Assembly: GCA_030537155.1 (NCBI GenBank)
Contig: JAUNOH010000001.1
Location: 111,574 to 159,584 of the forward strand
Origin: Bacillota bacterium
Lineage (GTDB): Bacteria > Bacillota_I > Bacilli_A > RFN20 > CAG-826
Direction of reading: 5' to 3'
Length of the DNA: 48,011 bases
Shown: piece after piece, positions 749-6,824 of the stretch
Layout of the letters: every line of letters starts with the position of its first letter
Position numbering within the stretch: the stretch's first letter is position 1
Translations under genes and position numbers: made by a program
The notes under the pieces: model-generated
Told to the model about the DNA's origin: nothing
The model's database searches: none
Seen by the model: only the letters and a program-made list of their open reading frames with translations

Positions 749-1243
749 ATGAGAACCCTAATTCTCCTCAGCGGCCTCCCCGGATCGGGCAAATCGACTT
801 GGGCCAAACGCTTTTGCCATGAGTATCCGAAAGCCAAAGTCGTCTCCAGCGACGCCATCAGGCTCAGGGAGTTTGGGGCCGTCCAAAACTTCGACCATGA
901 AAAAGACGTCTGGCGCATCTTCCTCGAGGAGATCAACGGTTACGCCGAAAGCGATCCCGACGCCGTCGTCATCGCCGATTCGACCAACCTCTCCAACTAC
1001 TATCGGAAATACTATTTCGAGGCCACACCCAACTTCGAGAAGCACATGCTCGTCTACTTCGACATTCCCTTCGAAATCTGCCAGGCCCAAAACAAATTAA
1101 GGCCCTCGAATAGAGTCGTCTCCGATGAGGCGATGAAAAGGCTATCTGGAGAACTGGAGAAACCCTCTTCCGAAATCATGAGCCTCTTCGACGAATACAT
1201 CCCCGTCGGAATTGAGTTTGCCAAAAAGGGATTGGCGTATTGA
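749..1243 (+). CDS. P-loop nucleotide/polynucleotide kinase-like ATPase (AAA_33 type)
   Basis: A 164-aa P-loop protein with Walker A GLPGSGKST at residues 9-17 and a short Asp-containing strand VVIADSTN (about 73-80) that fits the second conserved block of the AAA_33/zeta-toxin/polynucleotide-kinase group. The rest matches a single-domain kinase of usual size. Substrate cannot be told. It is a clear relative of the gene at 3585 (same length, same Walker A position), so this genome carries two copies of the family 2.3 kb apart. There is no good Shine-Dalgarno; TAGCAT at 734-739, 9 nt before the ATG, may be the -10. A bidirectional terminator follows. Confidence 0.75.
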   Translation: MRTLILLSGLPGSGKSTWAKRFCHEYPKAKVVSSDAIRLREFGAVQNFDHEKDVWRIFLEEINGYAESDPDAVVIADSTNLSNYYRKYYFEATPNFEKHMLVYFDIPFEICQAQNKLRPSNRVVSDEAMKRLSGELEKPSSEIMSLFDEYIPVGIEFAKKGLAY

Positions 1244-3584: not shown

Positions 3585-4076
3585 ATGAAAAAATTGATTC
3601 TCGTCTGTGGACCTGCCGGAATCGGCAAAAGCACCTTCTGCCGCAAGTATGAGGCGGATCATCCAGATGAGGAAGTCAAGATCATCGCCGCCGATGAGGT
3701 GAGGATGGCCATGACCGGCGGATACGATAAGTTCCCTCCCAACCACAACATGATGGTCGTCTATGAGAGGATGATCGAATTGGCCGAACAGTATTTCTCG
3801 GAAGGCGGGGATAATCTCACCATCATGATGGATACCACGATGCTCTACGACGAGAGGAGGAGCTACTTCCTCAGGAACATCAGGGGATACGAGAGGAAAG
3901 AGCTATTCCTGCTGAAGGTGAAAGACGTCAAGACCTGCCTTGAAAGAAACCATCTCAGAAAACAAGAGAAATGGGTGCCCGAAGAAGTCATCATCGATAT
4001 GTATAACTGCTACAAGGACCCCGCTCCGGAAGTGGCTAAGCAGTTCGATGAAGTGAAAACCTTCTACGTCGATTAA
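3585..4076 (+). CDS. P-loop kinase-like ATPase (AAA_33 type), paralogue of the gene at 749
   Basis: A 163-aa protein with Walker A GPAGIGKST at residues 9-17 and the block LTIMMDTTML (about 78-87) in the place of the second Asp motif. After it, basic residues in CLERNHLRKQ (about 113-122) could form the lid. Length and layout match the gene at 749, but the loops differ, with an acidic N-terminal part and GYDKFPPNHN (about 45-54) as a likely substrate loop. It belongs to the AAA_33/polynucleotide-kinase-like group; the substrate is unknown. It is monocistronic and ends at a strong terminator shared with the converging DUF2188 gene. Confidence 0.75.
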   Translation: MKKLILVCGPAGIGKSTFCRKYEADHPDEEVKIIAADEVRMAMTGGYDKFPPNHNMMVVYERMIELAEQYFSEGGDNLTIMMDTTMLYDERRSYFLRNIRGYERKELFLLKVKDVKTCLERNHLRKQEKWVPEEVIIDMYNCYKDPAPEVAKQFDEVKTFYVD

Positions 4077-4129: not shown

Positions 4130-4474
4130 TTATTTCTTTTTGGCGGGTTTGGCCGCAGCGGCTTTGGCGGCCTCTTTCTTGGCGGCGTCCTCAGCCTTCT
4201 TCTTCTCGACCGACTTCTTGGCCGTGGTACCGCCGATGACGGCGCCCTTCCTCGGTCCCTTCGAGGCGTGGATGACGGCAGCCCCTCCCTGATTCTTGGT
4301 TAGGGTGTCGACATAGGCCTCGGCCTCGGCTTTGGTTGAACAAAGTTTGATGACCTTGCCACCGCGAATCTTGATGGCCCACATGCCATCGCTCTCCCTC
4401 TTGAGGACGTGATATACCTTAGCGCTGTCCTTCTTGGGGGCTTCCTTCTTCGCTTCGACTTTCTTTTCTGCCAT
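4130..4474 (-). CDS. DUF2188 (YegP/YdhR-like) protein with lysine/alanine-rich tail
   Basis: A 114-aa protein. A short Lys/Glu-rich head (EKKVEAKKEAPKK) leads into a DUF2188-like domain at about residues 19-75: YHVLKR, WAIKIRGGKVIKL, STKAEAEAYVDTL and AAVIHASKG follow the family's order (YHV, W-K, T-EA, HxxdG). The last 30 or so residues are a Lys/Ala/Glu tail ending in AAAAKPAKKK, like a histone H1 or Alba-type DNA-binding tail. The start is set by AAAGGAG 8 nt upstream; a longer frame to 4543 overlaps the NAD synthetase end and lacks support. Nucleic-acid binding is inference from the tail; the domain's function is not established. Confidence 0.8.
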   Translation of the reverse strand: MAEKKVEAKKEAPKKDSAKVYHVLKRESDGMWAIKIRGGKVIKLCSTKAEAEAYVDTLTKNQGGAAVIHASKGPRKGAVIGGTTAKKSVEKKKAEDAAKKEAAKAAAAKPAKKK

Positions 4475-4532: not shown

Positions 4533-6764
4533 TTAGTCCACAAAATCGAGCTGTTTTAGAAAATCTTCTGCTTCAGCCTCGGTTGGAAGGCGCAAATCCC
4601 CACGCGGGGAGATGGCCACGGTCCCGACCTTGGCCCCGTCGGGGAGGCAGTTCCGCTTGAACTGGTTTTGGAAGAAACGGCGGAAGAAGACCTTCAGCCA
4701 CTTCTTGATGACCTCTTTCTCGTAAACGCCCTCAAACACCTGACAAGCTAAGACATAGATCTTTTTGGGTGAGGCCCCATAACGGAGGAAGTGGTAGATA
4801 AAGAAATCGTGGAGCTCATATGGCCCGATGAGGTCTTCTGTCTTTTGAGCCAATTCGCCTTTCTTCGTCGAGAGCAGCTCAGGCGAGATCGGGGTGTCGA
4901 TGATGTCGTTTAGGGAATCGGTGGCCTCGGGATGGAGGATGGCGTATCCCTTGCAGAGGTAGCGGACCAAAGTCTTGGGAATAGAGGCGTTGACCCCATA
5001 CATGGACATATGGTCACCACCATAGGTGCACCAGCCCAGGCATAGCTCCGATAAATCCCCGGTCCCGACCATCAAAGCCCCATGGTCATTGGCATAATCC
5101 ATCAACACCTGGGTCCTCTCGCGGGCCTGGGCGTTTTCGAAGGCATTGTTTTCAACGTTGCTTTCGTGTCCGAGATCAGATAGATGCTGACGGACGGAAT
5201 CGCCGATATTTATTTCCAGTAATCCGACGCCAAGCTCCTCGCTCAGTTTAACCGCATTGTCGTGGGTCCTCTTGCTGGTTCCAAAACAAGGCATCGTTAT
5301 GGCGGTTATGCCCTTGAGGTCATAGTTTAGGAGCTTGAACGACTCGACCATGACCAATAAAGCTAAGGTGCTATCCAATCCACCTGAAAGACCGACGACG
5401 GCCTTTTGGCATTTGATGGCCTTAAGCCTGGTGGCTAAGCCAACGGCCTGCATCTTCAAGATGGAGGAAACCCTCTCCAAGTCTATCTCCCCAGCAGGGA
5501 GGAAGGGGTTTTTCGGATAATCTCTCTCAATCTTTTTCTGGAGCGGGATTTCCATGTCAAAGGGTATGTAGACCATCCTTGGGGTGAAGGAATCCGAGAA
5601 ACTCGTGGTCCTTATCCTCTCGTGGTTTATCAGATCGAGATCGATGTCCGCGAATATGTCCTCGTTTTCAAATAGTTTGGACTGCCTGAGGATACTCCCG
5701 TTTTCCGCGATTAGGTGATGACCGGAGAAAACGAGGTCCGAGGTTGACTCGCCAATTCCCGCCGAGGCATAGACATAGCCGCATATTTGCTTCGCCGAGT
5801 TGATGCTCACCAGCTTACGGCGGTAAGCGTCTTTCCCCACCACCTCGTTGGAGGCCGAAAGATTAAGCACGAGGGTAGCCCCAGATAAAGAAGCAAAAAC
5901 CGAGGGGGAATCCGGCATCCAACCATCCTCACAAATCTCAGCAAAAACCTTTAATTTTGGGTAACTTTCGTCGACGAAAACCAGCTTATTTCCAAACGGA
6001 TACGGTTCGCCGTTGATATGAATAAAGCCCGTTTGTTTTGGGGCGGGTTGGAAATAACGCTTCTCATAAAATTCCCCATACTCGGGGATGTGGGTCTTGG
6101 GAACGACTCCGAGGATCCGGCCGCGGTGGATTATCACCGCGCAGTTAAAGAGGGATATCCCATCATGTAACGGAGCACCGACCGCGAAGAGGATGTCATA
6201 GTCTTTTGAGAATTCCTCAAGTTCAGCCAAACCGTTTTGGACCAATTCGAGAATTCGGCTTTGGAGGAACAAATCCCCAGCGGTATATCCTGTGAGAGCT
6301 AACTCTTGGAACACCAAAACCTTCACGCCTTTCTTTGAGGCCTCTATCACTTTGGCCTTTATGGCCTCGACGTTGTGGGTGACGTTTCCTATTTTTACAT
6401 CGATGGAGCTAGCCCCCACCCTGATGAAGCCAAGGGGGTCATCGGCTTGATTGGCGTTTTTCTTCGGGGGGCGTCTATGTTCCCCCATCATCGGGATAGG
6501 CCTATGCAAGGCGGGGTCATCGTGAAGGAACTCGCCATGTTCCATCATTGGCATGATCTCTAATGGGGGTCTTGGCCCACGAGGCCTATGTCTTTCCTCT
6601 GGCATCGGTGGTCTACCCTCCGATTCGAATTGCTCGATGGGGACGATCACAAAATCGCCATAGCCGTTCTTGGTGATGATTATCGGCTCACGGTGTTTAT
6701 TGATTTCTTCCGAGATTTTCACCGTGTCCCTCAGGGCGGTGATGGGCATGATTTTCATTTTCAT
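4533..6764 (-). CDS. nadE: glutamine-dependent NAD+ synthetase with N-terminal Phd/YefM antitoxin-like domain
   Basis: A 743-aa protein in three parts. Residues 6-48 read like a Phd/YefM antitoxin domain: ITALRDTVKISEEIN, then EPIIITKNGYGDFVIVPIEQ. Residues 49-108 are a Pro/Met/His/Arg-rich linker. Residues 110-743 are a complete glutamine-hydrolysing NAD synthetase: the nitrilase-fold triad is E154 (VFQELALTGY), K223 (VPKTH) and C278 (FAEICEDGW), and the ATP pyrophosphatase loop is SGGLDS at 460-465. It makes NAD+ from deamido-NAD+, ATP and glutamine in the cytosol. The enzyme part alone matches the family's length of about 640, so the head is an addition. ATGs at 6764 and 6758 are both possible; TATTAT at 6771-6776 favours a leaderless start at 6764. 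Confidence 0.93.
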   Translation of the reverse strand: MKMKIMPITALRDTVKISEEINKHREPIIITKNGYGDFVIVPIEQFESEGRPPMPEERHRPRGPRPPLEIMPMMEHGEFLHDDPALHRPIPMMGEHRRPPKKNANQADDPLGFIRVGASSIDVKIGNVTHNVEAIKAKVIEASKKGVKVLVFQELALTGYTAGDLFLQSRILELVQNGLAELEEFSKDYDILFAVGAPLHDGISLFNCAVIIHRGRILGVVPKTHIPEYGEFYEKRYFQPAPKQTGFIHINGEPYPFGNKLVFVDESYPKLKVFAEICEDGWMPDSPSVFASLSGATLVLNLSASNEVVGKDAYRRKLVSINSAKQICGYVYASAGIGESTSDLVFSGHHLIAENGSILRQSKLFENEDIFADIDLDLINHERIRTTSFSDSFTPRMVYIPFDMEIPLQKKIERDYPKNPFLPAGEIDLERVSSILKMQAVGLATRLKAIKCQKAVVGLSGGLDSTLALLVMVESFKLLNYDLKGITAITMPCFGTSKRTHDNAVKLSEELGVGLLEINIGDSVRQHLSDLGHESNVENNAFENAQARERTQVLMDYANDHGALMVGTGDLSELCLGWCTYGGDHMSMYGVNASIPKTLVRYLCKGYAILHPEATDSLNDIIDTPISPELLSTKKGELAQKTEDLIGPYELHDFFIYHFLRYGASPKKIYVLACQVFEGVYEKEVIKKWLKVFFRRFFQNQFKRNCLPDGAKVGTVAISPRGDLRLPTEAEAEDFLKQLDFVD

Positions 6765-6770
6765 GCCCTA

Positions 6771-6776
6771 ATAATA
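6771..6776 (-). promoter_or_regulatory. -10 box of nadE
   Basis: The minus strand reads TATTAT 6 nt before the first ATG. The only Shine-Dalgarno-like bases (AGGG) lie inside this gap. It fits the leaderless pattern seen at other genes here. Confidence 0.4.
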
Positions 6777-6824
6777 GCATTTTAATGACAGGTGGATGAA
6801 TTCTTCATTCCTCTGATGAGGTGA

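Follow-up and report, generated by a model that had tools for sequence, protein, structure and literature searches.

The window, as we call the whole 48,011-nucleotide stretch of DNA analysed here, carries on its minus strand (positions 6764-4533) a single unbroken reading frame of 743 amino acids, in which a short head and a linker precede NadE, the NAD+ synthetase that carries out the final step of NAD+ formation (Table 1). The neighbours of this fused nadE encode a DUF2188 protein and an ATP-grasp protein. A small protein similar to the DUF2188 product follows the fused nadE in the same-genus loci L005, L006, L151 and L170 as well. Two further genes of the window (749-1243 and 3585-4076) encode P-loop kinase-like proteins of about 163 amino acids each, assigned by an AAA_33 match for 3585-4076 and by sequence judgement for 749-1243.

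Table 1. Features of the fused nadE locus, in positions of the window
Feature	Positions	Strand	Basis
Phd/YefM-like DNA-binding head, residues 1-48	6621..6764	-	PF02604; b-a-a-b-b-a fold; PDB matches; purifying selection
Pro/Met/His/Arg-rich linker, residues 49-111, predicted disordered	6432..6620	-	low pLDDT; high dN in close relative pairs
Complete glutamine-dependent NAD+ synthetase (glutaminase + synthetase), residues 112-743	4533..6431	-	NF002730; nearest structure; catalytic residues
Putative operator, sense GTCATTAAAATG-C-TATTATTAGGGC, abutting the nadE start codon	6765..6789	-	degenerate copy of GACATAATTATG-n-[C/T]ATAATTATGTC
Extended -10 promoter element TGCTATTAT, within the operator	6771..6779	-	sequence; TG in 60/62 sites
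Gene for a DUF2188 protein immediately 3' of nadE (context, no role in the mechanism)	4130..4474	-	PF09954, 33.3 bits

Architecture of the fused protein

The head is a genuine Phd/YefM domain by profile and by fold. With residues 1-120 as the query, residues 3-48 match PF02604 at 32.4 bits (cut-off 29.8), and the profile on which the original prediction of an antitoxin-like head depended is thus present; with the full-length query the score is 28.8 bits, slightly below the same cut-off, and the alignment to the head ends at position 47 of the 74 in the profile. The NCBIfam model TIGR01552 (phd_fam) gives the head 21.9 against a cut-off of 20.8. As a search of PDB sequences with the head alignment returned no match at E 0.01, we relied on fold comparison. 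AlphaFold2 models the head with good confidence as b-a-a-b-b-a, and when the head alone was compared with the PDB by Foldseek the best matches were the Phd, YefM and RelB antitoxins, some of them operator-bound; E-values were weak and Z reached 6.9 at most. Five residues (P7, I8, R12, N33 and G34) are invariant across 25 aligned heads.

Behind the head, residues 50-107 are predicted to be disordered (AlphaFold2 pLDDT about 30), and the enzyme body is folded. PF00795 covers residues 124-379 and PF02540 residues 443-609 (Pfam), while the NCBIfam equivalog for NAD(+) synthase, NF002730, matches residues 110-740 at 778.4 bits (cut-off 473); Glu154, Lys223, Cys278 and the PP-loop SGGLDS are all present. 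The nearest solved structure is that of M. tuberculosis NadE (36-38% identity), which shares the catalytic body but has neither the antitoxin head nor the linker. PF02604, NF002730, the catalytic residues and the AlphaFold2 model together confirm what had been read from the sequence at the outset, namely that one frame holds a Phd/YefM segment, a linker and a complete NadE.

Distribution, descent and selection

A search for the same fusion in related genomes, proposed with the original prediction, found the head in relatives, where 62 different fused genes were read, in four families (f1-f4) of one order of uncultured gut Bacilli. Among the 146 genomes of the family that were searched, the fusion occurs in many genera, and some NadE proteins of this type lack the head; these headless relatives are active-looking enzymes of about 630 amino acids. 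An order-wide search of 279 genomes with the head alignment found fused heads in f1, f2, f3 and f4, and no fused head was found outside the order among the 395 genomes of the class and 392 genomes of the phylum that were sampled, in which heads occur only in short open frames of at most 132 amino acids. A scan of named genomes added one headed NadE, belonging to a horse-faecal Bacilli bacterium (L034).

On a tree of 92 NadE bodies, built with the head columns excluded, the label 'head' needs 3 changes, compared to a mean of 25.6 with shuffled labels; support is poor for 31 of the 89 inner branches of this tree, and some of its long branches are uncertain. The pattern is consistent with one old fusion followed by a few losses or replacements. 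A single genome (G023, L185:863-2941) encodes a NadE of this type in which an XRE helix-turn-helix domain (HTH_3, 38 bits) stands where the Phd/YefM head would be. It sits on a long branch, its glutaminase cysteine region is altered, and no second XRE-headed NadE was found among 29 relatives. This single case may represent a further DNA-binding head that NadE acquired independently.

Purifying selection on the head is as strong as on the enzyme. Fused genes compared in 14 pairs have a head whose dN is near or under that of the body and whose dN/dS is like that of the catalytic body, while the dN of the linker is several-fold above both in most pairs, a few very close pairs showing no difference. 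For L028 and L029, dN is 0.101 for the head, 0.478 for the linker and 0.101 for the body. We conclude from these rates that the head is a translated, functional part of the protein and the linker a tether.

The operator-like site and stand-alone antitoxins

Most fused nadE genes carry an inverted repeat of 25-26 bp, GACATAATTATG-n-[C/T]ATAATTATGTC, just 5' of the start codon of the head. The half-sites, GACATAATTATG, are separated by 1 bp in 51 sites and by 2 bp in 11, and with two exceptions the repeat ends 0-16 nt upstream of the start codon. The upstream motif was fitted with a tied half-site model; a one-register PWM misplaced the sites with the 2-bp spacer. The expectation-maximisation (EM) fit with tied halves gave 20.4 bits on average for 65 upstream regions, compared to 6.8-7.7 bits when the same fit was made on Markov-random upstreams, and by this matrix the promoter is the best site of its own locus in 56 of 61 fused loci. 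Headless nadE genes of the same lineage have no site above 12 bits at any of 12 loci (L027, among these, is truncated 11 nt upstream of nadE), and headless nadE genes elsewhere have such a site at 1 of 77. Sites are weak in a small subclade of fused genes (L010, L017, L154 and L159) and in two f4 genes (L190 and L194); for L154, L159, L190 and L194 the site is weak or missing.

In 60 of the 62 sites the right half-site follows the TG of an extended -10, which places the operator on top of the promoter. In part the site is AT-rich promoter, and headless nadE promoters accordingly reach low scores as well. We rejected the view that the motif is merely promoter: it explains the low scores of headless nadE but fails for the outer half-sites, which are not promoter elements and are also conserved.

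In the window, 6765-6789 is the sole site above 12 bits over all 48 kb (18.8 bits with the tied-half matrix). It is also the top site of the window with the antitoxin-only matrix described below, at a modest 9.5 bits, and belongs to the weaker copies; a search of the window's genome with the consensus pattern, allowing up to 3 mismatches, missed it. Where the site touches the ATG, as it does here, the transcript probably begins at the start codon or close to it. In another genome (G178) a second strong operator-like site (24.7 bits; L224:1586-1610) lies away from nadE, 250 nt before a gene for a putative membrane protein.

Among stand-alone Phd/YefM genes, those whose heads are closest to the fused ones have the operator of fused nadE too, 13-17 nt 5' of their own start codons, and in both examples that were checked with Pfam (L145 and L147) the antitoxin gene has a ParE-family toxin gene behind it. 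In other orders of the class the same site is found 15-25 nt upstream (L204-L208 and L211) or 40 nt upstream (L209-L210). An independent matrix was trained on 11 stand-alone antitoxin operators only and then scanned across the fused loci, where the nadE promoter is the top site in 56 of 62, the chance per locus being about 1.4%. At headless loci the promoter is top in 6 of 13, with scores of 11.5 bits or less and mostly under 7, a level that the shared AT-rich -10 would be expected to give. The suggestion, made with the original prediction, that the enzyme may bind its own promoter is thus supported by comparison, in that a conserved operator of antitoxin type overlaps the promoters of nadE genes with the head, and headless nadE genes score low for it.

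A divergent antitoxin subgroup, MQIVPMRDLKDTVKI (L149 and L197-L200), has a different palindrome, GGCTAAATAT..ATATAATTTAGTC, and head and operator therefore appear to change together. The proteins of this subgroup begin with MQIVPI in L149 and with MKIVPM in L200, and only L198 among its members has an obvious toxin-sized gene directly behind. A solo head-like protein of 62 residues, which ends soon after the DNA-binding part, is encoded near a contig end in a genome of family f8 (L144, G276); the NadE of that genome is of the short type, about 250 amino acids.

In E. coli, YefM and Axe repress via two palindromes over the promoter with centres 12 bp apart, and YefM alone binds weakly, the toxin being needed for firm repression (PMC7730913). 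The fused NadE resembles the YefM-YoeB and Axe-Txe systems in the DNA-binding fold, in the paired palindromes over its own promoter and in the proposed autoregulation at the first gene. It differs in that the toxin-binding tail and the toxin are missing, a metabolic enzyme standing in their place, and in that its half-sites, GACATAATTATG, lie 1-2 bp apart without a strict TGTACA core, although the sites with a 2-bp spacer do have TGTACA at their centre.

Autoregulation, its alternatives and significance

Computation establishes the fusion and its conservation, the selection on the head, the operator and the link between operator and head. We consider it probable that NadE has captured the DNA-binding domain of an antitoxin along with its operator and represses its own gene; DNA binding, repression and bridging by the NadE oligomer are what we infer from the sequence comparisons. 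In an ancestor within the order, NadE would have gained the N-terminal half of a YefM-type antitoxin, the part that dimerises and binds DNA, and the antitoxin's promoter-operator would have been retained along with this head. The heads would pair, occupy both of the neighbouring palindromes lying over the extended -10 of nadE and block RNA polymerase once NadE is sufficient. The flexible linker would let the heads on a NadE oligomer reach the DNA with catalysis undisturbed, and the oligomer may take over the part of the toxin by bridging two head dimers at a single operator. More speculatively, and against our own expectation, the assembly or ligand state of NadE (NaAD, ATP or NAD+) might alter the hold of the heads on the operator, which would make the fusion a one-protein feedback device that reads NAD+ synthetic capacity and also touches toxin-antitoxin expression where the operator is shared.

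Phd/YefM domains dimerise, and NadE of the M. tuberculosis type works as an oligomer. Both facts would suit a head whose chief role is to pair NadE subunits or to set their assembly or stability, the operator-like sequence being an ancestral promoter carried along. We find this improbable, since the invariant R12, N33 and G34 sit in segments that align with the DNA-binding domains of antitoxins, and since the outer half-sites, which are not promoter, are conserved and match antitoxin operators. The head could alternatively act as a global regulator of NAD or toxin-antitoxin genes, with NadE binding at numerous operators, among them the operators of the cell's antitoxin genes. The operator is indeed common to antitoxin genes of the same class, and the second strong site in G178 would fit as well; with up to 3 mismatches allowed, however, most of 24 genomes show the nadE site alone or nothing, and the remaining pattern matches are mostly low-scoring or intragenic, which leaves this reading with little to recommend it.

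It had also been proposed that a toxin-binding head shields the cell. That part of the original prediction was not supported: only the N-terminal, DNA-binding half of the antitoxin is kept, its tail having given way to an unconserved disordered linker, and no toxin-like open frame (judged by size and by eye) lies directly behind fused nadE at any of the 62 loci. A head that still binds a toxin encoded elsewhere, shielding the cell or tying NAD+ supply to the toxin, could draw on other antitoxin-toxin pairs in the genome, such as a YefM-like/YoeB-like pair (L002), but with the toxin-binding C-terminal part missing we judge toxin binding unlikely, indeed slightly less credible than global regulation. 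A toxin partner was rejected on both counts, neither a neighbouring toxin gene nor a toxin-binding tail being present, and the fused NadE is for the same reason not a toxin-antitoxin system. That the head is what remains of an antitoxin gene left in frame, or that the real start lies near residue 105, would agree with the active-looking headless NadE of about 630 amino acids but is scarcely credible given the purifying selection on the head, its retention across four families and a promoter directly before the ATG of the head, so near that a much later start is unlikely.

Turning to other regulators of NAD metabolism, NrtR and NiaR likewise control NAD supply through transcriptional repression but are separate proteins, unfused to NadE. 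The 3H domain of NiaR was found in none of 274 genomes of the order, and NiaR was ruled out as the regulator of nadE on this ground. NrtR_WHD exceeds its cut-off in 4 genomes only, all of family f5, and the window's genome has neither NrtR_WHD nor the 3H domain. In the NrtR-bearing f5 genome G269 (L221) the NadE, the sole one of that family that was read, is headless and has no operator, which would fit one regulator replacing another in the few genomes concerned.

Enzymes that double as repressors are already known. NadR of enterobacteria combines a helix-turn-helix domain with NMN adenylyltransferase and ribosylnicotinamide kinase and represses NAD genes; it thus resembles the fused NadE in that an enzyme of NAD metabolism bears a DNA-binding domain at its N-terminus, but its DNA-binding fold and its enzymes are others, and it controls other genes of the pathway, while the fused NadE, as far as seen, would control mainly its own. 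BirA and PutA are autoregulatory enzymes with DNA-binding domains, and likewise unite enzyme and repressor in a single chain; their helix-turn-helix or ribbon-helix-helix heads are unrelated to Phd/YefM, and their ligand switches are known. No description of a fusion between an antitoxin head and NadE, or of the transfer of an antitoxin DNA-binding domain and its operator to NadE, was found in the open-access papers searched; what is new here is the operator-like repeat that most fused nadE genes share with antitoxin genes.

If our preferred reading, self-repression by the captured head, is true, a toxin-antitoxin module has been dismantled, and its DNA-binding half and operator now serve to regulate an essential enzyme of metabolism. 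What solo antitoxins do has been raised as an open question (PMC2701414), on which the NadE fusion would then bear. The fusion also suggests a possible route to the control of NAD+ supply in a lineage in which NiaR was not found and NrtR occurs in one family only, and the fused nadE offers a small, directly testable autoregulatory system.
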